This document shows, one piece after another, positions 1,420-18,711 of a stretch of 31,541 bases of DNA (its first letter is position 1; the number at the start of each line of letters is the position of its first letter). The position numbers and the translations under genes are program-made. The stretch is taken from positions 1 to 31,541 of IMG/VR virus record IMGVR_UViG_3300009418_000070, one strand, 5' to 3'. This DNA comes from a virus. The notes beneath the pieces were generated by a model. That model was not told the DNA's origin. It made no database searches and saw only the letters and a list, made by a program, of their open reading frames with translations.

Positions 1420-1745
1420 GTCCGCAAGTCAAATCGCTGGAACTCCATCAGGAGTTAAGAGGTAGCGGGTAGAGCGGAGAGGTTCACCAAGTGAACCAAG
1501 ACCGCCAGAAAATCCAACAAGGAAGCCTTGTCTTTTGGTTGGGTTCAGTGCAGGCGGTTAGTCTTGCTAGGAGTACCCTCGGGGAAAGCAGGACGGGATA
1601 AGTTTTTTGATGCAACGTCAACAAGAAATTCCCAACGCTGTCGAATCTGAATTCATCAGGCCAGAATAAAAATAGCGGCGAAGACAATCGGACTACGTTG
1701 GGACCTTCCTCCAAGGGTCGAGCTAGTGTGGCGACTAGCTCCTGA
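1420..1745 (+). ncRNA. Candidate large structured noncoding RNA
   Basis: No gene is supported between terS (1177) and 1824, but the segment is packed with nested stems. Hairpin AACTCC-ATCA-GGAGTT (1441-1456) sits inside a CGCT/AGCG closing pair (1435-1438 with 1464-1467). GGTTCAC-CAA-GTGAACC is at 1481-1497. A long arm pairs CCGCC (1502-1506) with GGCGG (1553-1557). Inside that arm AATCCAA (1511-1517) pairs with TTGGGTT (1539-1545) and CAAGG-AAG-CCTTG caps it. GAGCTAGT-GTGGCG-ACTAGCTC is at 1720-1741. Long-range closing stems of this kind rarely occur by chance. The ends are approximate, the structure could start nearer 1310, and the strand is inferred from the downstream plus-strand genes. 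I do not recognise a known class; a group I intron or a GOLLD-type phage RNA was considered but not supported. Confidence 0.6.
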
Positions 1746-1758
1746 AGATGATAGCCAG

Positions 1759-1788
1759 AACAAAATATTGACTAGTAAATATTTTGTT
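1759..1788. repeat. Palindromic AT-rich element, copy 1
   Basis: A 30-bp inverted repeat: 14-bp arm AACAAAATATTGAC, centre TA, arm GTAAATATTTTGTT, with one mismatch. It is one of at least six related intergenic elements in the window (3362, 6196, 7812, 8129, 18823). It lies about 35 bp upstream of the start codon of the next gene, so it may be an operator for a dimeric regulator or part of a phage promoter. Confidence 0.6.
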
Positions 1789-1823
1789 TTAAATCGAAAC
1801 CAATTCACTTGGAGGTGAATAAA

Positions 1824-2057
1824 ATGACTGCTAAAGCATTGAAAGAAAAGTACCGACAAACCAACTACCGAAAGACGATTCGCGCACACAAGAAACAGTG
1901 TCGCATTCGCGCTGAGCGGCAGGCTAAAAATAAAGGTAAGTGGATGTCGTTGGTGGAGTCTGTAAGTGCAATTTCGATTCACGATGAAATTGATTCACTC
2001 GCGGAACCCAGACATTGGGTAGCGGTGGCAAAACTTCTCAAAAATCGTTTTGCATAA
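1824..2057 (+). CDS. Small basic hypothetical protein
   Basis: This encodes 77 residues. The N-terminal half is strongly basic and rich in lysine, arginine and glutamine (MTAKALKEKYRQTNYRKTIR, then HKKQCRIRAERQAKNKGK), predicted helical, and could bind nucleic acid. The C-terminal half is more neutral. I chose the ATG at 1824 because GGAGGTG at 1811-1817 is correctly spaced; the upstream TTG at 1809 overlaps that ribosome site. The palindromic element at 1759-1788 precedes it. Two terminator-like hairpins follow, and its stop codon overlaps a possible hammerhead. No family is recognised; a role as a small early host-takeover or regulatory protein is only a guess. Confidence 0.72.
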   Translation: MTAKALKEKYRQTNYRKTIRAHKKQCRIRAERQAKNKGKWMSLVESVSAISIHDEIDSLAEPRHWVAVAKLLKNRFA

Positions 2058-2102
2058 TTTGTAAACCAACTGAAGAGCTAGCGAAAATCTAGCGAAACGA
2101 TT
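2043..2102 (+). ncRNA. Possible hammerhead ribozyme (weak candidate)
   Basis: The sequence CUGAAGAG (2070-2077), a 5-bp stem II (GCUAG/CUAGC, 2077-2081 with 2089-2093) and GAAA (2094-2097) match the hammerhead core, in which the fourth base after CUGA may vary. Stem III would be AAUCG (2043-2047) with CGAUU (2098-2102), with UU at the cleavage position. Stem I is poor: only UUG/CAA directly flanks the core, with an internal mismatch. The predicted cleavage site lies inside the last codons of the upstream gene. It is listed because better hammerheads occur downstream, but it could be a degenerate copy. Confidence 0.4.
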
Positions 2103-2109
2103 CGTAATG

Positions 2110-2135
2110 AAACTTGTTTTGTATAACAAGTTTTT
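2110..2135 (+). terminator. Terminator-like hairpin
   Basis: A 9-bp stem, AAACTTGTT / AACAAGTTT, closes a 6-base loop (2119-2124) and runs into a T-run ending at 2135. It is AT-rich, so it may terminate weakly. A second, better terminator follows at 2162. Confidence 0.5.
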
Positions 2136-2161
2136 CCTGTTCAAGGTTGAATCGTCTTGGT

Positions 2162-2188
2162 GTAACCCATTTTGGGTTACGTTTTTTT
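2162..2188 (+). terminator. Rho-independent terminator
   Basis: An 8-bp stem, GTAACCCA / TGGGTTAC, with a TTT loop is followed by G and seven T residues. It separates the 77-residue gene from the ATPase gene. The ATPase operon therefore needs its own promoter, readthrough, or a promoter between the two hairpins; I could not see a good sigma70 match there. Confidence 0.78.
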
Positions 2189-2219
2189 AGCTTTTGATTT
2201 CATTTACTTGGAGGTAATC

Positions 2220-3326
2220 GTGAAAACAAATCCAACAAAAGCAGTGCAAGATATTCTCAATTGTTTGAAGGCCAACCATGTGCCGTATCTGGAGGGACAA
2301 GTTGGTATCGGGAAGTCGGCCATCGTAGATGTGTGTGTGAACATACTTCGCGGTGATCGGAAGCTCGTTACTGACAAGGAATCCCTCCCGCTAGCTGTTG
2401 CACCCCCAAAGGGTTCATTCGGCTATGTGTCGGTGCGACTGGGCTTGTATGAAGCGGTAGATTTTGGCGGCTTGCCGCACATCATGTTCCGCAAGGACAA
2501 CCCAGATATTGGAATTCAGCAACGAGCATTTCTTGAGAATCTTCCACAGTCTGGTGAAGGCGTTTTGTTCTTGGATGAATTTGCACAAGCTCATGCTTCG
2601 TTGCAAAGCATCATTGGACAATTGCTCCATGAGCGTAGGCTTGGGTCCTATATTTTCCCGTCAGGTTGGCGAATAGTGTGTGCTGGAAATCGGAGTACAG
2701 ACCGTGCTGGTAGCAACAAGGTTCCAACCCATGTGGTCAGTAGGGTTCAGCTTATTGAGTTCGAAGCCAGCACAAAGGAATGGTTGATCTGGGCAGCGAA
2801 GAATTATGTTTCCCCGTTAATTACGGGTTACATATCTTACCAACCCGAAAACTTGAACGTCTTCGATCCGAAGATTGCGGGACAGCAACCGAGTTCAAGA
2901 AGTTGGGTGCGCCTTAGCGACATATTAATTGTCGCACCAGAAGTTGTTAAGAACGAGGACGACTTGCAGCGCACTACGTCACAATCTATTGGTGATGCAG
3001 CGGCGATTGATTTTGCAACATTCGTTAAGCTTCAAAACGACATTCCCAATCTGTCGGAGATTATGAAGGACGGCGGGAACGTCCAAATTCCTGACGACAA
3101 CAAAATGCACTACGCCACTTGCATAGCGTTGGTCCACACAATGAAAGAAGCCGAAGCAGGCGAAGTGACTGGCTACTTTGAAAACGCACTCGCGTACATT
3201 CAAAGGATGCCAAGTGATGAGTTTGCGTTCTTCTTCATGCGTCAGGTAATTGGTCAGCGTCCTGACCTTGCTGAGACTTCTATTTATTCCGATTTCAAAA
3301 TCGCCAATCAGGCTTTTGAAATTTAA
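2220..3326 (+). CDS. MoxR-type AAA+ ATPase
   Basis: A 368-residue AAA+ ATPase of the MoxR/dynein-related type, expected to use ATP to remodel a partner. In known families MoxR ATPases act with VWA-domain proteins as chaperones or metal-insertion machines. Walker A is GQVGIGKS (residues 26-33), Walker B VLFLDEF (115-121), sensor 1 GNRSTDR (156-162), followed by a candidate arginine finger (SRV, about 174). The start is GTG at 2220, placed 7 bases after GGAGG; the reading frame runs further upstream but without a ribosome site. It is followed by the helical protein and the metallopeptidase/VWA protein, the classic MoxR-VWA gene order, here in a phage. The spacer after the stop codon holds an atypical hammerhead and a palindromic element. 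Confidence 0.85.
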   Translation: MKTNPTKAVQDILNCLKANHVPYLEGQVGIGKSAIVDVCVNILRGDRKLVTDKESLPLAVAPPKGSFGYVSVRLGLYEAVDFGGLPHIMFRKDNPDIGIQQRAFLENLPQSGEGVLFLDEFAQAHASLQSIIGQLLHERRLGSYIFPSGWRIVCAGNRSTDRAGSNKVPTHVVSRVQLIEFEASTKEWLIWAAKNYVSPLITGYISYQPENLNVFDPKIAGQQPSSRSWVRLSDILIVAPEVVKNEDDLQRTTSQSIGDAAAIDFATFVKLQNDIPNLSEIMKDGGNVQIPDDNKMHYATCIALVHTMKEAEAGEVTGYFENALAYIQRMPSDEFAFFFMRQVIGQRPDLAETSIYSDFKIANQAFEI

Positions 3327-3328
3327 AA

Positions 3329-3432
3329 CCACTGATGAGACCTGCAGGAATTCCAATTCCAAATAATTATTTACCAGTAAATATTTATTCGGTGAGGGCA
3401 GGCGAAACGCGCACGGGAGGTTGCGCGTTTGG
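3329..3432 (+). ncRNA. Atypical hammerhead ribozyme with very large stem II
   Basis: The core CUGAUGAG (3332-3339) and CGAAAC (3403-3408) are joined by stem II, CCUGC (3341-3345) with GCAGG (3398-3402), whose roughly 50-base loop contains another inverted repeat. Stem III is a closed 6-bp hairpin, CGCGCA (3408-3413) with UGCGCG (3422-3427), followed by UU at the cleavage position (3428-3429). Stem I is only CCA/UGG (3329-3331 with 3430-3432). This is type I topology. The core and two stems are convincing; the short stem I is the weakness. A further hairpin, GATGCAC-TTT-GTGCATC, follows at 3434-3450. Confidence 0.55.
3362..3389. repeat. Palindromic AT-rich element, copy 2
   Basis: AATAATTATTTAC, centre CA, GTAAATATTTATT: an inverted repeat pairing at 12 of 13 positions. 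It belongs to the same family as the element at 1759-1788 and lies inside the loop of stem II of the atypical hammerhead, so it could act as a DNA site, an RNA hairpin, or both. Confidence 0.6.
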
Positions 3433-3472
3433 GGATGCACTTTGTGCATCAATTTATAATTGGTTAAACATG

Positions 3473-3490
3473 ATCACTTGGAGGTGAAAC
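3473..3490 (+). promoter_or_regulatory. Conserved Shine-Dalgarno leader
   Basis: ATCACTTGGAGGTGAAAC directly precedes the ATG at 3491, and the identical 18 bases recur at 4571-4588. Shorter versions, ACTTGGAGGT, precede the starts at 1824 and 2220, and CGGAGGTGAAAT precedes 6613. Such identity beyond the ribosome site suggests a shared translation signal or recent duplication of leaders. Confidence 0.7.
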
Positions 3491-4477
3491 ATGGTTAAGA
3501 AAACCAAAAGTACCTTAGCTGAAAACGCTACTCTTGTTAGGCTTACCGCGAAGAATTTTTCGGGCGTTAAGGTTGACAGGGAAGCGCGGAAAGCACTCGC
3601 GAAAGAGTTCAATGCAAATGAAAAGTCTCTGCAAAGCAACAAACATCTGCTAGGAACTCCATGCTCTGCGCCCTTTCGGTCCATCGTGAATCGTTTTCGG
3701 AACGATAACGGGGGATACCTTGAGGTCACCTTACCTTGGCATGACAATACGCCAGCCGAAAACACTTCGAATAAAACTCAGGTTGTCGGATGGCGCATTT
3801 GTCCCAACAAGGAATTGCAGGGCTTGCTTGATAAATTCCAAGAATCCAAACGCGAGTTTGATTCGCTAAAAGAGGAATTCATTAAGGATTACCCGAAGAG
3901 GGTTGAAGCTTCGAAGAAAGCTTTGGGAGGTCTCTGGAAACGGCAAGACTACCCATCGCAGTCTGAGGTTGAGGATAAGTTCTACTACCACCTTGAAGTT
4001 GGAGGAGTTCCAACAGGTAAGAAAGAAGGTGAGGTGGACATTCGACTCAATCTCAGCAAAGAGCTTCGCGAGCGAATCGAAGCGGACGCTGAAAGACGTA
4101 TTCGACAAAGCGTGGAAAATGCTGCGAAGGATACTGTCGAGAGCTTACTGTCCGAGGTTAGCCATCTCGCTACCAAGTTGGTTGAGTATGATCCGAAGAA
4201 TAAACAGAAGTCGTTCTTCAAGGATGCAAGCTTTGACAATTTGCGAGATACGCTGTCCAAATTGCCGACAATTAACGAGGACATTCTTGGTGGAAATTCA
4301 GACATCAAGAAAGCTCACCAGAAATTGGTGAAAACTTTCTCAACAATTGGAAGCGATTTGGAGTCATACAGGGAAGACACTGCAGAGTCGAAGGCGAAAA
4401 GGGACACTCTCTCCGAGAGTCTCGACAAGTCAGTGGACAATCTGAAAGACAGCTTCTTGGGCAAGGCGTTTAAGTAA
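3491..4477 (+). CDS. Helical protein between MoxR and VWA genes, DUF3150-like
   Basis: A 328-residue, largely alpha-helical protein. An N-terminal region (residues 1-95) carries the stretch KNFSGVKVDREARKALAKEF. A central coiled-coil segment (about 105-150) is rich in lysine and glutamate, followed by KELRERIEADAERRIRQSVE (about 192-211) and a second helical region to the end. No catalytic motif is visible. The position between a MoxR ATPase and a metallopeptidase/VWA protein, and the overall make-up, resemble the phage DUF3150 family, which often sits in this gene order; that match is from memory and is tentative. It probably acts as an adaptor or substrate of the ATPase. The ATG at 3491 has the conserved GGAGGTGAAAC leader. 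Confidence 0.72.
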   Translation: MVKKTKSTLAENATLVRLTAKNFSGVKVDREARKALAKEFNANEKSLQSNKHLLGTPCSAPFRSIVNRFRNDNGGYLEVTLPWHDNTPAENTSNKTQVVGWRICPNKELQGLLDKFQESKREFDSLKEEFIKDYPKRVEASKKALGGLWKRQDYPSQSEVEDKFYYHLEVGGVPTGKKEGEVDIRLNLSKELRERIEADAERRIRQSVENAAKDTVESLLSEVSHLATKLVEYDPKNKQKSFFKDASFDNLRDTLSKLPTINEDILGGNSDIKKAHQKLVKTFSTIGSDLESYREDTAESKAKRDTLSESLDKSVDNLKDSFLGKAFK

Positions 4478-4483
4478 GGTGAA

Positions 4484-4507
4484 GGGGGGAACGATTTTGT
4501 TCCCCCC
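4484..4507 (+). other. Strong GC-rich hairpin abutting a hammerhead
   Basis: A perfect 9-bp stem, GGGGGGAAC / GTTCCCCCC, with loop GATTTT lies seven bases after the preceding stop codon. There is no T-run, so it is not a standard terminator. The next base starts the hammerhead at 4508. After self-cleavage the upstream mRNA would end six bases beyond this hairpin, which should block 3' exonucleases. Confidence 0.75.
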
Positions 4508-4558
4508 GCTGTATTGGAATGTGTATTCCAACTGATGAGATCGAAAGATCGAAACAGC
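4508..4558 (+). ncRNA. Hammerhead ribozyme, type III
   Basis: Every conserved part is present. Stem III is GCUG (4508-4511) with CAGC (4555-4558). The U-A step at 4512-4513 gives a GUA cleavage site after A4513. Stem I is a perfect 7-bp UUGGAAU / AUUCCAA (4514-4520, 4525-4531) with loop GUGU. The CUGAUGA core is at 4532-4538. Stem II is GAUC / GAUC with a GAAA tetraloop (4539-4550), and core GAAA is at 4551-4554. The 3' product would carry a 5'-hydroxyl leader of 76 bases to the next start codon. A sequence meeting all these constraints is very unlikely by chance. Confidence 0.93.
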
Positions 4559-4589
4559 AAATATATTCATATCACTTGGAGGTGAAACA

Positions 4590-6089
4590 ATGAATATTGA
4601 AACGATGAATGAGCAAGCAATGATAGCTTTGAAACGCTCTAACCTTCGCGTCATGCGCGATCACATGAGCTTGTCGAAGATATTATTGAACCTCAAACCT
4701 GTGATGTTAGAGAGTGGCACTTGTGCAACCGACATGATTCACTTTTTCTATAATCCAGAATACGTTCTCAGTCGGACTGAGGATGAATTGGATTTTGTTG
4801 TGACGCATGAAGTTGGACATGATTACTTTGAACATCCGCTCCGAATTGGATCGTGGAATCTGAAGCTCTTTAATATAGCTGCAGACCTTTCGATCAATTC
4901 TTTTCTCGTTTATGAATGCGGCTTGACAATGCCTAAGGGCGGTCTGTTGCTGCCTGAGTATCGGGGATGGGCGGTCGAAGCTATATGCCGCGATCTGGAC
5001 AACAACCCTGAGAAGCTTAAGGAAATTGTCGAGGAATTAACTAAGGACGATGACGGCGAAGAAGAGACCATGTGGACCCGTTCAGAAGACGGCGAAGACG
5101 GCTCCGAAGGCGAAGAGTCCGAAGGCGAATCCGAAGGCGAAGGCGAAGGCGAAGAGTCCGAAGAAACTTGCAATAACTGCGGGACTGAAATCGACAACGG
5201 TGGAAACTGGGGTCGCTGTGATCCATGCGCAGATGAAGAAGATTCAGACTCCGACTCAGGTTCCGAAGGCGAAGGCGATGGCAAAGAAAATCAGACTGAT
5301 AAATATTCTGATTTGCCCGAGCTGGCTGGAGGTGTTGTTGCGCCAAGGCATGATGATGGGACCAAGCTTGATAGCAACGAGATGGAAGAGCTTCGAGGTG
5401 AATTCCAACGGGCTAAAACCCTTGCGGAAAAACTCGAAGCAACCTTGCCAGCTGGAAGTGACACTGGCAATTGGACCACAGCGGCAGCGGATAACCCGAA
5501 GCACCAAGGCGAAATCAACTGGAAGGAATTGATGAAGGATAAACTCATGGATTCACTTTCGGACGATACGACTTGGTCGCGGCCAAACCGCCGATTTGCA
5601 TGGTCTGGGACTTATCTTCCATCGCGGCTTAAATCGCCTAATGGCGGCGAAGTTGCGGTGATGGTTGATACGTCAGGTTCTGTTTCACAGCGTGAGCTAG
5701 ATGTCTTTTCTGCAGAGCTTCAGATTCTTCTGGAGGAATGCGGGATTGAGCGGGTCAGAATCTGCTACTGCGATACCAGCGTTAAGAAAAACAGTGACGG
5801 CGAGTGGTGGGACGTTTTTGACCTCGATCAAGAGGACTTGAAAATGGTTAGGCGAGGTGGTGGTGGTACATCCTTCACCCCCCCGTTCAACCTGTTCAAC
5901 GATTGGTCCGAAGGCGAAGTGGATGACGTAGTTGCGATCATCTACTTCACTGACGGCGAGGGAGAAGTTGATGAGGATGTGGAGCCAGACGTACCCGTAA
6001 TCTGGGCAGTGACTTCTGAGAGTTGCTGGTCTGAGGAGCTTCCCTTCGGAGAGATCGTCTACATTGATCCGATAGACTTGCGTTGGTAG
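4590..6089 (+). CDS. Metallopeptidase-fold and VWA domain protein (DUF2201-like)
   Basis: This 499-residue protein joins a zincin-like N-terminal domain to a C-terminal von Willebrand A domain, as in the DUF2201 family. HEVGH (73-77) with H82 fits a zinc-peptidase motif, and NIAADLSIN (95-103) is typical of this family. A long acidic Glu-Gly-Ser linker follows (about 151-235), encoded by a repetitive GAAGGCGAA-rich stretch and interrupted by a zinc-ribbon-like C194-x2-C197 and C210-x2-C213. The VWA domain has the MIDAS motif DTSGS (360-364), GGGGTSFTP with T427, and YFTDGEGE (D455). It is the expected partner of the MoxR ATPase encoded upstream. Whether the peptidase fold is active is unknown. 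The ATG follows the conserved GGAGGTGAAAC leader. Confidence 0.87.
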   Translation: MNIETMNEQAMIALKRSNLRVMRDHMSLSKILLNLKPVMLESGTCATDMIHFFYNPEYVLSRTEDELDFVVTHEVGHDYFEHPLRIGSWNLKLFNIAADLSINSFLVYECGLTMPKGGLLLPEYRGWAVEAICRDLDNNPEKLKEIVEELTKDDDGEEETMWTRSEDGEDGSEGEESEGESEGEGEGEESEETCNNCGTEIDNGGNWGRCDPCADEEDSDSDSGSEGEGDGKENQTDKYSDLPELAGGVVAPRHDDGTKLDSNEMEELRGEFQRAKTLAEKLEATLPAGSDTGNWTTAAADNPKHQGEINWKELMKDKLMDSLSDDTTWSRPNRRFAWSGTYLPSRLKSPNGGEVAVMVDTSGSVSQRELDVFSAELQILLEECGIERVRICYCDTSVKKNSDGEWWDVFDLDQEDLKMVRRGGGGTSFTPPFNLFNDWSEGEVDDVVAIIYFTDGEGEVDEDVEPDVPVIWAVTSESCWSEELPFGEIVYIDPIDLRW

Positions 6090-6102
6090 GTGAGAGAGAG
6101 AA

Positions 6103-6130
6103 AGAGGGCGCGACAAAAGTCGCGCCCTCT
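6103..6130 (+). other. Strong GC-rich hairpin preceding a hammerhead
   Basis: A perfect 12-bp stem, AGAGGGCGCGAC / GTCGCGCCCTCT, with loop AAAA lies 13 bases after the VWA stop codon and 12 bases before the hammerhead at 6143. No T-run follows. It repeats the hairpin-then-ribozyme arrangement seen at 4484-4558, with a different stem sequence. Confidence 0.75.
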
Positions 6131-6142
6131 GGGCGGGGATAA

Positions 6143-6193
6143 TCTGTCGTGGAATGTGTGTTCCACCTGATGAGATCGAAAGATCGAAACAGA
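6143..6193 (+). ncRNA. Hammerhead ribozyme, type III
   Basis: Stem III is UCUG (6143-6146) with CAGA (6190-6193). The U-C step at 6147-6148 gives the classic GUC cleavage site after C6148. Stem I is GUGGAAU / GUUCCAC (6149-6155, 6160-6166), 7 bp with one G-U pair and loop GUGU. CUGAUGA is at 6167-6173. Stem II is GAUC-GAAA-GAUC (6174-6185), and core GAAA is at 6186-6189. Stem II, the core and the stem I loop match the ribozyme at 4508, while the stem I and III bases differ in a compensated way, as expected for a selected RNA structure. Confidence 0.93.
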
Positions 6194-6195
6194 CA

Positions 6196-6225
6196 AAAGT
6201 TTTGACTGGTAAAATATTATTTTGG
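6196..6225. repeat. AT-rich element, copy 3 (imperfect)
   Basis: The core TTTTGACTGGTAAAATATT (6201-6219), flanked by AAAAG and ATTTTG, matches the element family but is a less perfect inverted repeat than the copies at 1759 and 3362. It begins just three bases after the hammerhead at 6143-6193. Confidence 0.5.
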
Positions 6226-6323
6226 ACCGAGATGAAATAACAATTCGTTTTGTGAAATAACAATTCATCTTGTTTTTTTTATTTCGTTTTTTTTTGATCC
6301 TAGAATCTCACGGAAAGAAAGCC

Positions 6324-6365
6324 ATCGAGTGTCTTTCATCGAGTGTCATTCATCGGGTGTCTTTC
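6324..6365. repeat. Three tandem 14-bp repeats
   Basis: Three copies of ATCGAGTGTCTTTC with one change in each of the second and third (6324-6337, 6338-6351, 6352-6365). They share the core TCG(A/T/G)GTGTCTTTC with the 19-bp tandem repeats at 8247-8301. They lie in a 520-base spacer (6090-6612) that otherwise holds a hairpin, two hammerheads, an AT-rich element, a palindrome GTGATATCAC near 6433 and a weak hairpin AAGGG/CCCTT near 6448. Confidence 0.7.
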
Positions 6366-6507
6366 ATCCCTTTTATAGCGCGGCCTGCAGAGGGCGGCAA
6401 AATTAGAGGCGATCTGAGAGGGGCTGTTTTCGGTGATATCACGACAAGGGTCACTCCCTTTTATCGCGTCTAAGCGCAAATGTGGGCTTCCGAATTTCCA
6501 AAAACCA

Positions 6508-6556
6508 CTGTCTCAGACTGAAAGTCTGGCTGAATGAGTCCAAAAGGACGAAACAG
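6508..6556 (+). ncRNA. Hammerhead ribozyme, CUGAAUGA core variant
   Basis: Stem III is CUG (6508-6510) with CAG (6554-6556). The U-C step at 6511-6512 gives a GUC cleavage site. Stem I is 7 bp, UCAGACU (6513-6519) with AGUCUGG (6523-6529), loop GAA. The core reads CUGAAUGA (6530-6537), one extra A compared with CUGAUGA. Stem II is GUCC-AAAA-GGAC (6538-6549) and core GAAA is at 6550-6553. All stems are fully paired, so I call it a hammerhead with an inserted core base. Activity may be reduced or retained. It lies in the leader of the next gene set, 57 bases before the ATG at 6613. Confidence 0.78.
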
Positions 6557-6612
6557 GGGTGGATTGGCTTTATCGCCAATCTTGATTGAAATGAAATAGT
6601 CGGAGGTGAAAT

Positions 6613-6762
6613 ATGAGTAGTGAAAAAAAGTTAGGCCGGCGTATTTCTGGTACTTACGGACGATTAGGCACGAGGAAATTAAAACGTGCAGCGTCCAAGG
6701 GTACTCGAAAGAAAATGAAAGATGATCTTTCGTTAAAGGAAAGGGAGGTGAAAAATGGATGA
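6613..6762 (+). CDS. Small basic hypothetical protein
   Basis: A 49-residue, strongly basic peptide (MSSEKKLGRRISGTYGRLGT, then KLKRAASKGTRKKMKDD) with no recognised family; a nucleic-acid or ribosome contact is possible from charge alone. CGGAGGTGAAAT precedes the ATG. Its last 8 bases overlap the start of the next gene, and the overlap region carries that gene's ribosome site, so the two are probably translationally coupled. It is short but the start signal and the gene packing support it. Confidence 0.65.
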   Translation: MSSEKKLGRRISGTYGRLGTRKLKRAASKGTRKKMKDDLSLKEREVKNG

Positions 6763-7027
6763 ATTGTTAAAAATAGATGCGCTAGTAGATGAGACTTTCT
6801 TAAAAATGGCGAACCATAACCTACTCTATGATTTTGATGATGTAGGCGCAGTTGAGGAAATAATAGGCCATCTTTTGGAACTCGGCACTGCTAGTGCTGA
6901 TAATGTTATTGAAAAACTGAACGCTATCGAAGAAAAGAAGAAAGCCTATCAACGTGAGATTAAATTACTAAGAGATAGAATTGAACTATTAAAATCTAAG
7001 GAAAGGGAGGTGAAAAATGTCAGTTGA
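6755..7027 (+). CDS. Hypothetical coiled-coil protein
   Basis: A 90-residue acidic protein with a helical N-terminus (MDELLKIDALVDETFLKM) and a C-terminal coiled coil (about residues 49-85, NVIEKLNAIEEKKKAYQREI and on). No family is recognised. It overlaps genes on both sides (8 and 11 bases). The 22 bases containing its ribosome site and ATG (6736-6757) recur exactly before the next gene (6998-7019), so both upstream proteins end in EREVKN plus a short tail. This looks like a duplicated translation-coupling cassette. Confidence 0.75.
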   Translation: MDELLKIDALVDETFLKMANHNLLYDFDDVGAVEEIIGHLLELGTASADNVIEKLNAIEEKKKAYQREIKLLRDRIELLKSKEREVKNVS

Positions 7028-7583
7028 AAAATCTCAAAGCTGCCCATTCAATGCAGTCGTATCTACTGACCGAATCAAATCCAAAATTGAGAAGGGCAAA
7101 GAAGTTGAAGTGCGCTCGATCAAGGATGGGAAGTTCGGATTCTTTGCGGTTGCTTTTGCTGAGGGCGAAACGAGTCCTGTTTTCATAGGTCTTAAAAATC
7201 TTGACTTTGCCAGTGATTGCACTGACGAAAGAAAGAATGAGCTTGAGGCAGAAAAGAAAGCTTGGAAGGCGAAACAGGATATGCGCATCTTTGTCGGAAC
7301 CGATCCAGACTGGATAGGTGAAAGATCAGTTGCATTCGATTGGACTCTGTCCGACAGTGTTCCGCTGCAGAACGGACGATCAGGGTCGCTCAAGAAAAAG
7401 GTTCGTCTCTTCTTTCCTCTCGTGACTCGTGCTGGAAAGAAAATCTATGATGAGAAGGACGGAACCATCCCTCAGTGGATTTGGGACGCTAAGTGCAAAG
7501 AGCATAGCGGTAAAGTTCTCAGCAGCAGATGGGGATACGCGGTTACTGATTTTCGTATCTTGAAACCGAGCGTTGGCGGTTAG
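7017..7583 (+). CDS. Hypothetical phage protein
   Basis: A 188-residue, apparently globular protein with a mixed composition and several aromatic residues (RIFVGTDPDWIGERSVAFDW, VRLFFPLVTRAGKKIYDEKD, PQWIWDAKCKEH). No motif is recognised. The alternating hydrophobic pattern in the N-terminal half suggests beta structure. The ribosome site GGGAGGTG lies inside the previous gene. A hairpin, GCGTTGG / CCAACGC (7570-7591), spans the stop codon. The gene closes the plus-strand set that starts at 6613. Confidence 0.75.
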   Translation: MSVEKSQSCPFNAVVSTDRIKSKIEKGKEVEVRSIKDGKFGFFAVAFAEGETSPVFIGLKNLDFASDCTDERKNELEAEKKAWKAKQDMRIFVGTDPDWIGERSVAFDWTLSDSVPLQNGRSGSLKKKVRLFFPLVTRAGKKIYDEKDGTIPQWIWDAKCKEHSGKVLSSRWGYAVTDFRILKPSVGG

Positions 7584-7591
7584 CCCAACGC

Positions 7592-7746
7592 GGCCAGTCG
7601 ATGGCTAAAATGCGATGAGAGTAGGTCATACCAAGATTCCCCTACTGACAAATTCGACAGGGAAGGCTGGAAGACGGTTAGTCACAGTCTAGTTGCGATG
7701 GGAACAACACTGGTAACAGGTTCCATAAACAAGCAGTGCAAAATTA
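7592..7746 (+). ncRNA. Candidate noncoding RNA ending at a strong terminator
   Basis: After the stop codon at 7583 there are about 165 noncoding bases before a strong terminator. Visible stems are GGCCA/TGGCT (7592-7596 with 7602-7606), GTAGG/CCTAC (7621-7625 with 7641-7645), and GGAAC/GTTCC (7701-7705 with 7720-7724). This could be a small RNA processed from the 3' untranslated region or an independent transcript. No known class is recognised and the ends are guesses. Confidence 0.4.
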
Positions 7747-7781
7747 GGGCAGTAGCAGAAATGCTACTGCCCTTTTTTTTT
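7747..7781 (+). terminator. Strong rho-independent terminator
   Basis: A perfect 11-bp stem, GGGCAGTAGCA / TGCTACTGCCC, with a GAAA tetraloop and nine T residues. It ends the plus-strand transcript that begins before 6613. Confidence 0.92.
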
Positions 7782-7811
7782 GCCTGAAAAAACGTACCTG
7801 CTTACTTCAGG

Positions 7812-7838
7812 TAAATAAATATTTACCAGTCAAAAGAT
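7812..7838. repeat. AT-rich element, copy 4 (reverse orientation)
   Basis: AATAAATATTTACCAGTCAAAAG is the reverse-strand counterpart of copy 3 (TTTTGACTGGTAAA..). A small hairpin, ACCTG/CAGGT, lies just upstream (7796-7812). It follows the terminator at 7747. Confidence 0.5.
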
Positions 7839-7946
7839 AACTTTCTTGGGGAGACTTTTAAAAAGGTGGGCGGTTAGGGAGAAATGTCTCCCCCCCCTGT
7901 TAAGTTTTGAATAGTTAGGTGAAAAAAATATTTTTGAAAAAGTTCT

Positions 7947-7986
7947 CCGGCATAAACTTTTTTATGCCGGCATAAACTTTTTTATC
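7947..7986 (+). terminator. Hairpin in a 20-bp tandem repeat, terminator-like
   Basis: Two tandem 20-bp copies of CCGGCATAAACTTTTTTAT plus one base (7947-7966, 7967-7986). The first copy and the start of the second form a perfect 10-bp stem, CCGGCATAAA / TTTATGCCGG, followed by a T-rich tract. It therefore works as a terminator shape as well as a repeat. A weaker hairpin, GGGAGA/TCTCCC, lies at about 7879-7894. Bases 7782-8128 contain no supported gene. Confidence 0.6.
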
Positions 7987-8128
7987 TTTTCCTTGTCGCT
8001 TATTTTTTTATGTTCTGGTGATCCCGACTGTGGAAGCTCAGGCGTTTATTTTTGAACTGCATAAACTTCTTAATATTCAAAAGCTTATACGGAAGAGCCG
8101 AGAGAAGCTGGCAACCGCGAGCGTAGTT

Positions 8129-8160
8129 AACAAAATATTTACTGGTAAAATTTCGTTTTG
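8129..8160. repeat. AT-rich element, copy 5
   Basis: AACAAAATATTTAC, centre TG, GTAAAATTTCGTTTTG. The left arm equals that of copy 1 apart from one base; the right arm is closer to copy 3. It precedes the 17-bp inverted repeat at 8194 in a stretch without genes. Confidence 0.55.
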
Positions 8161-8193
8161 ACCAGAAACTTCTTGAATTTCAAAGACTTAGGG

Positions 8194-8233
8194 CAGACCA
8201 CCCCCCGTTATTCCAGTAACGGGGGGTGGTCTG
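8194..8233. repeat. Perfect 17-bp inverted repeat
   Basis: CAGACCACCCCCCGTTA (8194-8210), loop TTCCAG, and its exact complement (8217-8233). No T-run follows on either strand, so it is not a plain terminator. It is immediately followed by tandem repeats at 8247. It could be a cruciform or regulator site, an RNA stability hairpin, or part of a replication or packaging site. Confidence 0.85.
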
Positions 8234-8246
8234 AGCCGCGCCTCCA

Positions 8247-8301
8247 ATCGTGTGCCTTTCCTCGGATCGTGTGCCTTTCCTCGGATCGTGTGTCTTTCCT
8301 C
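8247..8301. repeat. Tandem 19-bp repeats
   Basis: Two exact copies of ATCGTGTGCCTTTCCTCGG (8247-8265, 8266-8284) and a third partial copy with one change (8285-8301). The core TCGTGTG(C/T)CTTTC resembles the 14-bp repeats at 6324-6365. Iterated sites next to a long inverted repeat are typical of protein-loading sites; the role here is unknown. Confidence 0.75.
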
Positions 8302-8378
8302 TTGATCCAAGTCGGCCAGATGGTTTACTATGAGCACATCGAGACGTTTTGGGTTTACGTTTTCGGTTCACCTCCTGA

Positions 8379-8405
8379 GGGGTCAAGCAATTGGCCCCTT
8401 TTTTT
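8379..8405 (+). terminator. Rho-independent terminator
   Basis: An 8-bp stem, GGGGTCAA / TTGGCCCC (one G-U pair), with a GCAA tetraloop and a seven-T run. No gene is seen directly upstream on this strand, so it implies a noncoding transcript crossing the repeats at 8194-8301, or late readthrough. Confidence 0.85.
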
Positions 8406-8465
8406 ATGTGCATACGCTTTCATAGAGCAAGCAATATGCTATTATGATGAAGATAAAGGGAGGCA

Positions 8466-8624
8466 ATGATTATGGAAGTTTCAGTACCAGTTTTTTCTTG
8501 GCAGCGTTGGTGGGAAGTACCCTTCTTTATATTCATCGGTCTTATGATGATCCTTTTCCTTCCCTGTTATTTCGGAATCCATTTGATGCGTAAACACTTT
8601 AAAAAAGAAAAGGTTTCTCAATAA
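8466..8624 (+). CDS. Small single-pass membrane protein
   Basis: A 52-residue protein with one hydrophobic segment (about residues 19-38, PFFIFIGLMMILFLPCYFGI), an N-terminal tryptophan-rich stretch (SWQRWWE) and a basic tail (RKHFKKEK). This layout fits a small inner-membrane protein with its C-terminus in the cytoplasm. A holin-like or superinfection role is conceivable but unproven. AGGGAGG precedes the ATG at 8466. The stop codon overlaps the next ATG by one base (TAATG), which indicates translational coupling. Confidence 0.72.
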   Translation: MIMEVSVPVFSWQRWWEVPFFIFIGLMMILFLPCYFGIHLMRKHFKKEKVSQ

Positions 8625-8983
8625 TGAAGTTTGCTGTCATTCGGCACACCTTCGTCCTCACCCAAATACAAGAAGACCCGCCAGAAAGCGAAGGCAGTTG
8701 GGAACATTTTGTCTGGCTTTTCGATGATGAAAGAGACTCCATCGCATTCGCCATCACCCTGCTCGACAGTCCGCTTCTGAAGAATGAATTTGCTCTGGCT
8801 GATGCTGTTGAGCAACTTGAAAAACGTGGCTACTACCAGATCGGTGGCGAGAGCGTAGCTGTAGGGGTCGTGATGAACACGGTTGAGGGATTCGGATTAA
8901 CGCAGGAAGAAGGCTCTCCAGACTGGGAAGAATCAGCAAAGGAATTTGTATCCAATGAAAAACGAAAAAACAATCTTCATTAG
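8624..8983 (+). CDS. Hypothetical phage protein
   Basis: A 119-residue acidic protein with a beta-like start (MKFAVIRHTFVLTQI), aromatic EHFVWLFDDERDSIAFAITL, then a helical stretch (ALADAVEQLEKRGYYQIGGE) and a hydrophilic, charged tail. No family is recognised. It starts on the stop codon of the membrane protein gene, and its last 29 bases overlap the next gene. Gene packing and composition support it as real. Confidence 0.72.
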   Translation: MKFAVIRHTFVLTQIQEDPPESEGSWEHFVWLFDDERDSIAFAITLLDSPLLKNEFALADAVEQLEKRGYYQIGGESVAVGVVMNTVEGFGLTQEEGSPDWEESAKEFVSNEKRKNNLH

Positions 8984-9215
8984 ATGTAGCGAGGAAACGC
9001 TGCTGTTGGCAAAGGCACTCGCTGAACATGAAGATCGATCAGTGAATAAACAAATCATCCACCTGATTCATTCTGCCGCGAAGAAGAATCCAATACTGGC
9101 TGGAGAATTAAGCAGGAGGAAAACCGTTTACCCCAACAAGAAAGAGACTAAGTATGGTCTGGTAGAGCTTGCAAAAAGCCTTCAGAAGGTGATTCCCCAA
9201 GACCCCAAAAATTAA
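8955..9215 (+). CDS. Ribbon-helix-helix (Arc-like) DNA-binding protein
   Basis: An 86-residue protein. The N-terminal half fits the ribbon-helix-helix fold of Arc-type repressors: a short strand (KTIFIRCSEET), helix A (LLLAKALAEHED) and a turn plus helix B beginning RSVNKQIIHLIHSAAKK. The C-terminal half is basic and less defined. Such dimeric proteins bind short palindromic operators, so it is a candidate ligand for the repeated palindromic elements of this region; that link is speculation. I use the ATG at 8955 (MKNEK) rather than the TTG at 8946. Its 3' end overlaps the opposing gene by 68 bases. Confidence 0.72.
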   Translation: MKNEKTIFIRCSEETLLLAKALAEHEDRSVNKQIIHLIHSAAKKNPILAGELSRRKTVYPNKKETKYGLVELAKSLQKVIPQDPKN

Positions 9216-9633
9216 TCAAGGTGTCGCAGCATCTTTGGGCGACATTTACGACTCCATCCCTGATCTCTATGGGATTCCCCACCATCAATGCCCAGAAAAT
9301 CTTCTCATCCTCATTCCCGCATTCTTGGGAAATTAATCTTTGAACCTTTAGTAATACAACGGACCTGTGGAACGGTTTCGGAGAAGAATTATGATCAGTA
9401 AATATTCTTTCCCAAGAAACACTTCCGCCAAAAGCACCCGATTTCGAAATCAATCCCAAATACTGGTTTGCTACGTTGTGCTGCTGTGCCGACAGTTGTT
9501 TCAAAAGATACAGCCTGTCAATCGCGTGTTGATCGAGGACAACAGCCTGCCCAAGTCGGTCAACACCTACTCGATGCCTCTTATGTAGGCATCGAGTGCC
9601 AGTCTCCCTACAGGGACCAGTCGAAGTCTTCAT
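9148..9633 (-). CDS. Hypothetical protein downstream of primase-helicase
   Basis: A 161-residue frame on the minus strand that starts within the last 26 bases of the primase-helicase gene. From about residue 20 it reads like a real helical protein (VDRLGQAVVLDQHAIDRLYL, then QLSAQQHNVANQYLGLISKS, then DGVVNVAQRCCDTLINFW). I placed the start at the ATG at 9631-9633, which has GGGAG nine bases upstream. An 11-bp hairpin (9569-9597) falls inside its early coding region. The stop codon lies within the opposing ribbon-helix-helix gene. The family is not recognised; the helical pattern could suit a transcription or replication accessory factor. Confidence 0.62.
   Translation of the reverse strand: MKTSTGPCRETGTRCLHKRHRVGVDRLGQAVVLDQHAIDRLYLLKQLSAQQHNVANQYLGLISKSGAFGGSVSWERIFTDHNSSPKPFHRSVVLLKVQRLISQECGNEDEKIFWALMVGNPIEIRDGVVNVAQRCCDTLINFWGLGESPSEGFLQALPDHT
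9569..9597 (-). other. Perfect 11-bp hairpin at primase gene end
   Basis: ACTCGATGCCT, loop of 7, AGGCATCGAGT. It begins about 11 bases beyond the primase-helicase stop codon on the minus strand. It has no T-run. It may stabilise the primase mRNA or regulate translation of the overlapping gene 9148-9633. Confidence 0.6.
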
Positions 9634-11398
9634 CCTCGATATCTCCCTGCACTTCTGAATAACGCCCAGTCCTTGGGTCAAAGATAAGAGAAACCTTTCC
9701 AGTCTTTCCGCACCAACCCCACCTGACTTTCCAAGCGATCAACTCACAGTTTCCATCTTCTGGTCTTTCATCATCAATTTTCCTGATCGTCAATCCAACG
9801 TCACACTTCGAAAACCAGTGCATCGATCCAGCCACATCGAGTCCTCCCACCAATGGACGCTTGCCGTCACGATAACTTGGCTTTGCGGGATGGCTCACAA
9901 AAAGGCAAAGAACGTCATAATGCCTGCAGAAAAGTTGAATTTTGGTAAGTACACTGGAGATAAAATCAGTATCAATCGACTTAGCGTGGATGAAATTGAA
10001 CGGATCGATTACGAGAATTCTGCAGCCACGCATGACGGCTCCCTCGGCTTTCTCTAGAATTTTCTCAATGGTCGGAAGCTCATCGGACCTGTAATCTTGG
10101 AACAGGATGTGATCCTTGATCCAGCTTGCCGCCCAGTCTTTTTCGGACTGTGTCATGCGGGGTCCAGAGCCATCGGAAAAGAAACTTTTACCAATCAGAA
10201 CTTGAGACAACAGCGCGGAGTGCATGGCTGGAGGTTTTTCGAAAGAGCAGAAACAGGTCTTGAGTCCAGTCGAGCGTCCTACGTTTACGATCAATGAATC
10301 GAGCCAAGCTGACTTGCCTTCTGACGGCCAACCGCTGATCACAACTAGACTGCTGGTAGTAAGCTTGAATAACTTATCGACAGAGGTGTAGCCAGTTGAA
10401 ATTCCCCTAGGCACTCCCTGATCATAGAGCCTCTGGAATTCTTCGTGGTAACTGGAAATGTCGTTCAGCCCGTGCAACGGCATCGGAGTTGCATTGATGA
10501 TGGATTCCCTCACGGCTTCCGAGCCATCTGCCATCAGTAATTCATTGGCATCCTTGTGTGTCCCGTAGCTCACTCTCGTACATCGTCCTGCATTTAATCT
10601 TCTGCTTAATTCTGCAGCGAGTAGGTCCCCGCATTTGTCAGCATCGGTAGCTAGGATAATTTTTGTCTGGCTTTTGAACTTGTCCCTTTCTTCCCATATG
10701 AATTTGAATCTACCTTCCTCTTCTGGAGCAACGCGGTTCTCTGAGATTTTTGACGGTGCGCCATTCGGAACTGAATAACACTGGATATTCATGTGCCCAG
10801 CGAATGCGTTTTGCACGGCAAGGCAATCGAGTTCTCCTTCGGTAATAATAATGCCATCCAGAATAGGAAGATCAGGATCGAAAATTTGCTGACCCCACAG
10901 GCGGGATGCTTTTCCCTCCCACCAGAAAGTTTTCGCTCCATTGGCAGACCTCCACTTTACTGCGTCCACGTTACCGTCTGTCAGATAGGGAAAACCTATT
11001 ACTGGTTTATTATTCTTTTGGTTGAGGATTGCGCCAGCCTTATCAGCAATGACTGGGTCGATCCCGCGTTGCTTCAACCAATCAGCTGCCTGTCCAGACA
11101 GGTGGTTGGGAGGAATATTTTTTATATTTGGGGCAGCCTTAACAGGACGCTCCAAGTTGTTGAAATTTATGGTCTTATTGGTAAATACAGACCCGCGCTC
11201 ACCGCAGTGGTGGCAGTGGAAAACCAATCTGTCGCTTTCGATCTTCACCGACAAGGGCCTGTCGGCTTTGTTTTTTCTCTGGGACTGGCAATCTGGACAG
11301 CTGATTTTGAATTGCCCGATTGGAAGTCCTTGGGTAGGTGGCTGTTTTTCGATATGTGCTAAAAAAAATTCTCTCTTCTCTCGTTCTTGGATTTGCAT
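9608..11398 (-). CDS. DNA primase-helicase, T7 gp4-like
   Basis: A 596-residue bifunctional replication enzyme that makes RNA primers and unwinds DNA at the fork. The zinc-binding domain has C34-x2-C37 and C62-x2-C65 (CPDC, CHHC). The TOPRIM primase domain shows IITEGELD (E187) and the DxD pair ATDADK (D252, D254). The C-terminal RecA/DnaB-type helicase has Walker A GWPSEGKS (356-363), Walker B ILVIDPFN (461-468) and FVSHPAKPS. The C-terminus is acidic (IEDEDFDWSL), as in T7 gp4, where the tail contacts the polymerase. The ATG has a strong GAGGAGG site. Length and domain order match the phage T7 family. It is the largest gene of a minus-strand replication set. Confidence 0.95.
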   Translation of the reverse strand: MQIQEREKREFFLAHIEKQPPTQGLPIGQFKISCPDCQSQRKNKADRPLSVKIESDRLVFHCHHCGERGSVFTNKTINFNNLERPVKAAPNIKNIPPNHLSGQAADWLKQRGIDPVIADKAGAILNQKNNKPVIGFPYLTDGNVDAVKWRSANGAKTFWWEGKASRLWGQQIFDPDLPILDGIIITEGELDCLAVQNAFAGHMNIQCYSVPNGAPSKISENRVAPEEEGRFKFIWEERDKFKSQTKIILATDADKCGDLLAAELSRRLNAGRCTRVSYGTHKDANELLMADGSEAVRESIINATPMPLHGLNDISSYHEEFQRLYDQGVPRGISTGYTSVDKLFKLTTSSLVVISGWPSEGKSAWLDSLIVNVGRSTGLKTCFCSFEKPPAMHSALLSQVLIGKSFFSDGSGPRMTQSEKDWAASWIKDHILFQDYRSDELPTIEKILEKAEGAVMRGCRILVIDPFNFIHAKSIDTDFISSVLTKIQLFCRHYDVLCLFVSHPAKPSYRDGKRPLVGGLDVAGSMHWFSKCDVGLTIRKIDDERPEDGNCELIAWKVRWGWCGKTGKVSLIFDPRTGRYSEVQGDIEDEDFDWSL

Positions 11399-11411
11399 TG
11401 GTCCTCCTCAT

Positions 11412-11468
11412 AGTTCTTACTAAGTAGTTCTAACTAAGACTTAGTATAAGATTATTATTATATAATTC
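11412..11468. promoter_or_regulatory. AT-rich spacer with repeated CTTACTAAGT motif
   Basis: This spacer upstream of the primase-helicase contains AGTTCTTACTAAGT (11412-11425), ACTAAG and ACTTAGTATA, and a TATAAT-like tract with ATAAGA/TCTTAT symmetry near 11447-11473. The 14-base core is the exact reverse complement of a site at 89-102 at the left end of the window. It may be a shared operator or a promoter region for the primase gene. Confidence 0.45.
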
Positions 11469-11909
11469 TTATACCTCTTCTAAAGATGAAATAAATTTCG
11501 AAATTTTCCTGATCATGCGCCTCTCGCGGAAGCTGTCATTCACAAAATCGTGATACTCAGCAAGCTGTGGGTCGTGGCAGAAAGATTCCTCGTTGATATC
11601 ATTCTGATAAATTGCCCACTCAAGTGCTTGTTTCAGATCGTGCGGAAACGATCCAAGATGTGTGGGTGGCGTGTAAATGTCCTCATCTAACCCTACGTTG
11701 ATCTTGCCAACAGACAGGGGCTTCTTGCGTTTGAGTGTTCGGTATTTTTTGAGGCACAGGGCATTGCAAAATTTATTTTTCCCCAGACTGGGACTCTCGA
11801 TTCCGCACCCCAAACAAACCTTGACGCTCAATATCCTTCTGATCGGTTTGATAATTTCCCCGTGCTTGGGGGGAGTGTGCAAGAAAATCAAACCACCTAT
11901 GCTAGCCAT
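11469..11909 (-). CDS. Hypothetical zinc-finger-like protein
   Basis: A 146-residue protein with an N-terminal cysteine cluster, CLGCG (about 32-36) and FCNALCLKKY (about 47-56), that could bind zinc in a treble-clef or recombination-factor-like manner. A basic segment follows (RTLKRKKP). The C-terminal half is helical and acidic, with FPHDLKQALEWAIYQNDINE and a charged end. No family is recognised. AAGGA precedes the ATG. Its first 8 bases overlap the end of the next upstream gene, so the two are probably co-translated ahead of the primase-helicase. Confidence 0.75.
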   Translation of the reverse strand: MASIGGLIFLHTPPKHGEIIKPIRRILSVKVCLGCGIESPSLGKNKFCNALCLKKYRTLKRKKPLSVGKINVGLDEDIYTPPTHLGSFPHDLKQALEWAIYQNDINEESFCHDPQLAEYHDFVNDSFRERRMIRKISKFISSLEEV

Positions 11910-18156: not shown

Positions 18157-18711
18157 ATGCCAGCAATGGTAAAAGTTTGTTACGGAATTTTCTTTGAAAA
18201 TGTATGCGGTGGGGCGGTAGTTTTCAGCGATGAATATGCAGAAAATCTCGGAGTCTGGGATAAATACGATTTCACTGGAAAAATTATTTTGCTGTCCAGA
18301 GGAGCTTGCGTACATTGGGCGCACAAACATTCGGCAAGCAGATTGATTTCAAGGGCAATTAAATTATTACCAGTAAAATATAAAATCATCACGGCGACCA
18401 CCGATGAACTTGCTGGAGAAATTGGAACAATTTACCAAGCCTGTAATTTTAATTATGTCGGCGTGATGCGAAAGACTGACACCAGATTGGGCGTGTCGGT
18501 AAATGGAAAACTGTACGGTTCAAGATCAATCCGGCAAAAGATCGGCACTACAAAGAAAGAAGAGATTCTCGATATGTTTCCCAACGCAGAATTCATTGAG
18601 CAGAAATCCAAGTCCAGATACTTTTTTTTCAGAGGTACGAAGCAAGAGAAAAAATATCACAGGGCGCAGATAGAGAAACTCATTAAACCCTATCCGAAGA
18701 GGACGGCATGA
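18157..18711 (+). CDS. Mom-like DNA modification protein
   Basis: The frame from the first ATG gives 184 residues that fit the phage Mom family, GNAT-fold enzymes that modify adenines in phage DNA to resist host restriction. Typical pieces are VCYGIFFENVCGGAVVFSDE, ILLSRGACVHWAHKHSASRLI, ATTDELAGEIGTIYQACNFN and YVGVMRK. The homologous-looking frame continues upstream without a stop to 17938, including DLFGRWWEKID and EIIEKYEWLGC, but has no ATG, GTG or TTG. The true protein is therefore probably about 65 residues longer, starting at a rare codon or after a lost frame. The family match is from recognised motifs. Confidence 0.78.
   Translation: MPAMVKVCYGIFFENVCGGAVVFSDEYAENLGVWDKYDFTGKIILLSRGACVHWAHKHSASRLISRAIKLLPVKYKIITATTDELAGEIGTIYQACNFNYVGVMRKTDTRLGVSVNGKLYGSRSIRQKIGTTKKEEILDMFPNAEFIEQKSKSRYFFFRGTKQEKKYHRAQIEKLIKPYPKRTA

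Follow-up and report, generated by a model that had tools for sequence, protein, structure and literature searches.

The 31,541-base virus record from IMG/VR analyzed here (at its full length, the window) is from a marine virus infecting bacteria, and it contains an operon for a MoxR-like ATPase, a DUF3150-like protein, and a metallopeptidase/VWA protein whose spacers and leaders carry hammerhead ribozymes. It is likely that self-cleavage of these RNAs punctuates the operon and matures a polycistronic message, a task that falls to RNase III in phage T7. At least five, and probably six, hammerheads were found in this one gene cluster, all of them on the operon strand. Four motifs had been reported in the original prediction, and all four (3329-3432, 4508-4558, 6143-6193, and 6508-6556) are indeed real and present at these coordinates; its count was too low, however, with the copies at 2065-2161 and ~1708-1815 overlooked.

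We compared 162 loci (the window and L001 to L161, 1.57 Mb), which are viral contigs picked by VWA/MoxR protein similarity and not by ribozyme, including four annotated phage regions. Some loci are overlapping parts of a single contig (the window itself recurs as L010), others are near-identical contigs, and the set as a whole falls into 30 DNA clusters. On the operon strand, 543 hammerheads (243 nonredundant) were present in 153 of the 162 loci. With a descriptor score of 12, there were 425 matches on the operon strand, 0 on the opposite strand, and 1.0 per strand in shuffled sequences; with a score of 10, the numbers were 433, 1, and 3.5. An extended descriptor that allows an insert before stem II gave, at a score of 15, 123 matches on the operon strand (119 of them new) and none on the opposite strand or in shuffled sequences. 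A first, relaxed descriptor had returned scattered weak matches within genes, with 8 on the opposite strand, and was replaced by stricter scoring; the strand count thus depends on thresholds set later, with the shuffles as its control.

Placement followed the length of the spacer. No hammerhead lay within the MoxR, DUF3150, or VWA genes. When identical-sequence spacers were counted once and L027 to L030 were excluded, 77 of 81 distinct MoxR-DUF3150 and DUF3150-VWA spacers of more than 60 nucleotides (nt) had a hammerhead, whereas none of 69 spacers of 60 nt or less had one (MoxR-DUF3150, 65 of 68 and 0 of 5; DUF3150-VWA, 12 of 13 and 0 of 64). Among the four long spacers without a match, those of L102 and L157 contain, by eye, a type I hammerhead with a very long stem III loop, that of L089 is degenerate, and that of L100 has a small open reading frame (ORF). 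The maximum per locus was eight (L100 and L139). In the virus records of this clade, the matches cluster around the operon, no more than several kilobases apart; in one record (G010), a further copy lies at the opposite end. When 20 whole records were scanned at an E value of 0.01, 17 gave a type III match and 13 a type I match; one of the 17 is Vibrio phage 1.025.O, with a weak match to our type III model R1 (6.2e-4; models described below).

The distances to the neighboring genes were narrow. Type III cleavage sites lay a median of 79 nt before the next start codon (interquartile range, 76 to 83; n = 136), and type I sites lay 56 nt before it (35 to 62; n = 103). Of 106 type I cores, 54 began 5 nt past the stop codon of the preceding gene, and in 13 the UGA of the core was itself the stop codon; the copy at 3329, which begins 5 nt past the MoxR stop, has this commonest position. 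The 70 nt 5' of type III hammerheads had a fold z-score below -2 in 66% of cases (n = 160), compared to 16% in 288 stretches 600 nt further upstream and only 24% 5' of type I hammerheads (n = 90). The first 36 nt past the type I cleavage site, on the other hand, had a z-score below -2 in 60 to 62%, with the first pair at an index of 5 or less in 86% (n = 91), compared to 7 to 18% and 51 to 62%, respectively, at five shifted control positions (n = 107 to 155). The same arrangement is seen in the window, where hairpins precede type III copies (4484-4507 and 6103-6130) and follow type I copies (2162-2180 and 3434-3450). Thus, the RNA end that is not capped by the ribozyme's own stem tends to have an extra hairpin.

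The type of hammerhead at a given site can change. In the MoxR-DUF3150 spacer, the hammerhead is of type I in the window, L016, L018, and L021 but of type III in L004 to L006, L013, L014, and L017. A MoxR tree, in which L089 and L157 were scored as having none, requires at least three changes between the types at this spacer. What is conserved there appears, from these comparisons, to be the cut and not one inherited RNA.

Structure and covariation of the hammerheads

Covariance models were built for type III including two window rows (R1), for type III without window rows (R3), and for type I (R2). R3 matched all three type III copies of the window, at 4508-4558 with 72.9 bits (E 3.5e-20), at 6143-6193 with 65.6 bits (E 6.9e-18), and at 6508-6556 with 36.6 bits (E 8.5e-9). 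The original prediction had proposed a search with the Rfam hammerhead models. That search gave one hammerhead match in the window, to Hammerhead_3 (RF00008), whose type III topology and core are common to the type III copies, at 6505-6559 with 33.7 bits, which is under the gathering score of 48.5. At the gathering score, no window copy was assigned to RF00008 (one was listed at E values up to 10), and there were 0 matches in 14 relative loci (139.5 kb); at an E value of 0.5 in four loci, the sole match was the L002 counterpart of the same copy. Rfam alone was too insensitive as a detector and was replaced by our own descriptors and covariance models. Since it missed nearly all ribozymes in the loci run, such systems may be commoner than annotated.

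In a covariation test on an alignment of 21 type III sequences, which included two window copies, 108 cells were changed on both sides, compared to 28.2 in shuffles, and the covariation score was 0.871, compared to 0.243. Pairing was possible in 93% of the cells, and 14 of 17 pairs showed changes on both sides, compared to 11.3 in shuffles. Judged by sequence-derived structure and covariation, these are genuine hammerheads.

The core CUGANGA...GAAA...UH and its three stems are complete in the window copies starting at 2065, 4508, and 6143. The copies at 4508 and 6143, described before as near-perfect, proved to be complete type III hammerheads with H17 at 4513 and 6148; their stem II and loops are near-identical, and the stem differences are, as had been said, compensated, since a reading of the sequences shows compensated changes at two pairs, located in stems I and III, respectively. 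The variant at 6508 is also type III, but its core has an additional A following A6 (CUGAAUGA). The copy at 3329, noted as atypical with a huge stem II, is type I with a long bulged stem II and a stem I of just 3 bp; it was found by bulge-tolerant descriptors, and its relatives are near-identical sequences only. In the copy at 1708, the inner stem III has 3 bp and one U is inserted. The newly found type I copy at 2065 matched R2 with 50.6 bits (E 6.9e-12) with filters and, in a shorter alignment, with 35.6 bits (E 9.9e-8) with the filters off. Its minimum-energy fold is the hammerhead, whose closed stem III would leave the upstream RNA with a hairpin at its 3' end. With an upstream strand (2042-2103), a weak type III reading of this copy is possible as well (R1, 21.3 bits). 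In sequence, the A15.1-U16.1 and G10.1-C11.1 pairs are present in all six window copies. The recurrent loop I motif UGUGUR, which we take to resemble loop I of the satellite tobacco ringspot virus (sTRSV) hammerhead, suggests a tertiary contact between loops I and II.

Among the relatives, U10.1-U11.1 is common (44 of 85 type III and 15 of 77 type I copies), a mismatch already recorded by Perreault et al. (PMC3088659). Copies with this mismatch have A17 in 42 of 44 type III and 15 of 15 type I cases (57 of 59 in total), a count that is uncorrected for kinship and from which we draw no proof. Some relatives have one extra nucleotide before stem II, and all 29 listed copies of this kind have C17, likewise with kinship not removed. 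Others have an insert of 28 to 40 nt with two hairpins between CUGANGA and stem II (11 distinct sequences in 34 occurrences). The first of these hairpins has 3 to 4 bp, with compensated changes in the stem, and carries a GAAA, GCAA, or GAGA loop in 10 of the 11 sequences; a supposed insert in L064 was a mis-parse and was excluded. Near the start of the operon in L006 (4425-4475), and also in L005, L078, and L087, are hammerheads with A15.1-U16.1 swapped to U-A (GAAU), a rare variant outside the 543.

Proposed transcript processing and alternative readings

We favor transcript processing because the hammerheads occur on one strand, are placed in long spacers, keep a narrow geometry, are accompanied by end hairpins, and replace each other as types I and III. 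The hammerheads would cut the polycistronic phage transcript between its genes without any protein. By hammerhead chemistry, each cut would give the upstream mRNA a 2',3'-cyclic phosphate and the downstream mRNA a 5'-OH. A hairpin would lie at or close to the 3' end of the upstream piece. Another would occupy the very 5' end of the downstream piece or lie close to it, and from there a leader of fairly uniform length would run to a strong Shine-Dalgarno (SD) sequence. With type III, the extra hairpin would lie upstream and the ribozyme's own stem I would cap the downstream 5' end; with type I, the closed stem III would cap the upstream 3' end and the extra hairpin would lie downstream. The leader copies with H17 at 1719 and 6512 may also unmask a ribosome-binding site on cutting, which is less certain. 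We infer that there is a single primary transcript, that it is cleaved in the cell, that the hairpins protect the ends, and that the resulting mRNAs decay and are translated independently. On this comparative evidence, the earlier proposal of one transcript being divided by self-cleavage into separate mRNAs is the best-supported reading.

Several findings weigh against transcript processing. Nine loci have no hammerhead (L008, L009, L019, L020, L023, and L027 to L030). In L008 and L009 (of which L019 and L020 are further stretches), the three genes are separated by short spacers that lack a ribozyme, so the genes do not in themselves require the device; it is also absent from L023 and from L027 to L030, the four annotated phage loci. 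A descriptor match in Roseobacter phage CRP-7 (L027), with a 3-bp stem II and a 4-bp stem III, was rejected and is outside the 543. Of the 21 type III rows aligned, 17 have a nonstandard first pair in stem II, and 34% of the type III copies have no significant upstream hairpin, including the 6508 copy (z -0.8), for whose insertion after A6 low activity is reported in the text of Perreault et al. (PMC3088659). The copy at 3329 is the weakest of the four motifs noted before and, apart from its short stem I, is missed by model R2. In the MoxR tree, the window and L014 are long branches that meet, and 11 of 38 inner branches are weak.

If each gene had its own promoter in the spacer, the ribozyme would merely trim a variable 5' leader to a constant one; the synthetic part RiboJ is an analogue of such a leader insulator. 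The narrow distance from type III cleavage to the start codon is as expected for insulation, and the recurrent TTTACYRGTAAA palindrome, with six sites in the window, may mark a promoter. The palindrome TTKACYRGTHAA lies at 1768, 3370, 6202, 7822, 8138, and 27391 (11 strand matches, compared to 0.10 expected for a motif that was picked after viewing), and a looser 9-base form is present in 53 of 70 MoxR-DUF3150 spacers of relatives, often in the hairpin before the ribozyme, in a count made with no chance control. It is possible that this palindrome is a phage operator or promoter. However, type I hammerheads start at the upstream stop codon, and palindrome-free hairpins exist at 3' ends, as upstream of the 4508 and 6143 copies; thus, the upstream message is shaped too. 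Moreover, sigma-70-like promoters were without clear excess (10 found, compared to 7.5 expected). We consider leader insulation rather unlikely. That the cut is set by a ligand or condition, sensed by the two-hairpin inserts or by a bistable leader fold, is a doubtful prospect: the 11 distinct inserts, the leader copies with predicted SD masking before cleavage, and an alternative fold of 1700-1830 would agree with control, but the inserts share, by eye, no sequence beyond the GNRA-type first loop, are present in 34 occurrences compared to 543 copies in all, and are absent from the window.

The near-identity of stem II and loops within one genome, as in the 4508 and 6143 copies (at 4532 and 6167) and in similar type I copies in L004, suggests copying, as if selfish or neutral hammerheads spread between spacers with no role for the phage. 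Spread of this kind is very unlikely to be the explanation, as no hammerheads were found on the opposite strand at the strict scores or within the three genes, the geometry is narrow, stem changes are compensatory, and one type is replaced by the other in the same spacer. Least of all do we expect circular mRNAs, for which genes flanked by ribozymes would, by hammerhead chemistry, yield gene-length RNAs with ligatable 5'-OH and cyclic-phosphate ends. RNA ligase PF09414 and RtcB (PF01139) were each found in 0 of 15 records, several of them fragments, in a search that covered these two families and neither T4 Rnl1-type nor host ligases; according to the text of Perreault et al. (PMC3088659), circular or spliced products were undetected in their work. 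With regard to transcript processing, the many natural replicates with clear placement rules make function testable, since they offer cut predictions at base level, swaps of type I and type III, and two related contigs free of ribozymes.

Leader copies and the Shine-Dalgarno sequence

The candidate at ~1708-1815 surfaced only in a still looser descriptor scan. It has a stem I with the loop UGUGGCGA, the core CUGAAGA at 1742-1748, and GAAA at 1796; beyond the 3 bp of the inner stem III and an internal loop, CCUCCAAG (1708-1715) is paired with CUUGGAGG (1808-1815). This outer strand of stem III contains the SD of the gene at 1824. Two divergent relatives, L052 and L093, have other stem I sequences but keep the loop UGUGRCGR and the anti-SD pairing; the stems of this class were compared by eye in these three divergent sequences. 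On cleavage, the predicted accessibility of the SD rises from 0.04 to 0.62 in the window leader and from 0.16 to 0.78 and from 0.03 to 0.80 in the two relatives. The copy at 6508 is similar in this respect. Its minimum-energy fold is the hammerhead within an outer helix (6486-6498/6593-6607; z -3.0) that pairs the SD of the next gene (6486-6493 with 6600-6607), and the predicted accessibility rises from 0.00 to 0.74. Pairing of an anti-SD with the SD across the cleavage site was found in the 1708 copy and its two relatives, in a scan devised after the window case was seen, and, from the predicted fold, in the 6508 copy.

Against SD masking stands the minimum-energy fold of 1700-1830, which differs from the leader hammerhead. 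In addition, an unmasking gain of more than 0.4 was seen in 21 of 272 hammerheads, compared to 28 of 292 control genes, and hammerheads are generally not complementary to the SD (mean longest complement, 3.95 compared to 3.94 in shuffles for type I and 4.02 compared to 4.16 for type III). SD masking as a general role was therefore rejected, with no excess of complementarity and no unmasking beyond that of control cuts. A scan of genome contigs found distant MoxR relatives in bacterial contigs, with identities of at most 34% among the best 80; the anti-SD scan, the one ribozyme scan applied to these contigs, found no SD-masking ribozyme.

Synthetic switches with an anti-SD and the SD in a hammerhead or twister stem, as described in PMC5052635, release the SD on cleavage, and the same is predicted for the leaders. 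Those switches are engineered, whereas the window leader is natural and its action predicted. Should the leader copies act in this way, they would provide a natural counterpart of a design that is not known to us in other than synthetic form.

Known systems and the operon region

In 2011, what hammerheads do in bacteria and phages was described as unclear (PMC3088659), and in 2023 it was still given as unknown why they are associated with phage genes (PMC10085705). The original prediction regarded punctuation of an operon by so many ribozymes as undescribed. In part this does not hold: the text of Perreault et al. (2011; PMC3088659) describes multiple hammerheads that flank prophage genes and proposes phage transcript processing, and a triple cluster of Agrobacterium tumefaciens cleaves in vitro and in Escherichia coli. 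Those clusters share with the window several hammerheads in one orientation that flank phage genes, but the triple cluster is the largest named in that text, and the identity of the genes is not constant. Here, in contrast, nearly every long spacer of one conserved operon is occupied, with up to eight copies per locus, a narrow geometry, and end hairpins. In the literature searched, with most subscription papers outside its scope, there was no report of this MoxR/DUF3150/VWA hammerhead family. As far as these searches show, the extent is new, with almost all long spacers punctuated (up to 8 copies per locus and 10 in a phage outside the clade), and so are the hammerhead whose core is flanked by two additional helices and the predicted natural SD-masking leader ribozymes. 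Together with the rule for which RNA end receives an extra hairpin, these features go beyond the concept as known.

In T7, RNase III cuts the polycistronic early mRNA at five sites into mono- and dicistronic mRNAs, as described in PMC4858673; the cutter there is a host protein, whereas here the RNA would cut itself. HHphage of the haloviruses HF1 and HF2, in the account of PMC3088659, is a further related case: it lies 13 nt before the start codon of the gene that comes first on an early polycistronic transcript, and a mapped 5' end is close to its cleavage site. Unlike those of the window, it is a single copy with a short insertion near C3 in an archaeal virus.

Two ribozyme pattern scans yielded 93 further viral loci, which show existence and not frequency. 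Of these, 52 fall into the same clade as judged by protein or DNA matches; the remaining 41 include 34 with at least one hammerhead by descriptor. L265, which is outside the clade by these match tests and has a DNA ligase gene, carries ten hammerheads on the reverse strand (4476-11714 of the reverse complement) among small genes; L297 carries five, and L292 and L323 carry four each.

The features of the operon region are listed in Table 1. The MoxR-like ATPase had no Pfam match at 0.001, and the descriptor scans, including the looser one, found no hammerhead in the ORF pair at 6755..7583.

Table 1. Genes, hammerheads, and hairpins of the operon region (positions in the window)
Feature	Position	Strand	Predicted cleavage or evidence
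Probable leader hammerhead, sixth copy	~1708..1815	+	predicted cleavage 1719/1720
First operon gene, 77 amino acids, no assigned function	1824..2057	+	sequence; start downstream of SD
Type I hammerhead	2065..2161	+	predicted cleavage 2156/2157; descriptor and model R2
Hairpin, begins 5 nt past predicted new 5' end of MoxR mRNA	2162..2180	+	fold prediction
MoxR-like ATPase	2220..3326	+	phrog_1297 ATPase, E 2.6e-66
Type I hammerhead candidate, long bulged stem II, 3-bp stem I	3329..3432	+	predicted cleavage 3429/3430
Hairpin at predicted new 5' end of DUF3150 mRNA	3434..3450	+	fold prediction
DUF3150-like protein	3491..4477	+	PF11348, E 8.1e-5, 22.5 bits, under 24.9 cutoff
10-bp hairpin, predicted upstream mRNA 3' end	4484..4507	+	z -4.6 over 70 nt
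Type III hammerhead	4508..4558	+	predicted cleavage 4513/4514
Metallopeptidase/VWA protein (DUF2201)	4590..6089	+	PF13203, E 1.2e-30; PF09967, E 5.1e-16
12-bp hairpin, predicted VWA mRNA 3' end	6103..6130	+	z -5.9 over 70 nt
Type III hammerhead	6143..6193	+	predicted cleavage 6148/6149
Type III hammerhead (6505-6559) inside outer helix	6486..6607	+	predicted cleavage 6512/6513
49-amino-acid ORF	6613..6762	+	read from sequence
Two overlapping ORFs (6755-7027 and 7017-7583) without spacer	6755..7583	+	ORF reading
Terminator-like hairpin with T run, likely operon end	7746..7781	+	hairpin scan

Past the last gene, the noncoding stretch at 7584-7785 has a strong fold (z -4.0) with the terminator-like hairpin at its end and belongs to no Rfam family at the gathering score. 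The stretch 5' of the operon (1440-1700) has long hairpins (z -2.6) and is without an Rfam match. In INPHARED, positions 2000-9000 of the window had no DNA match among cultured phages, and protein identities to cultured relatives were ~27 to 32% among the matches listed. The phage nature of the window is backed by a Mom-like protein, an exonuclease, a primase/helicase, and an LPD38 giant protein. An ORF of 2,733 amino acids was considered as an N4-type virion RNA polymerase, an idea that was dropped since the ORF matches LPD38 and two phage families without an assigned function. The Mom-like DNA modification protein is encoded at 18157-18711 (PF25680, E 6.6e-18).

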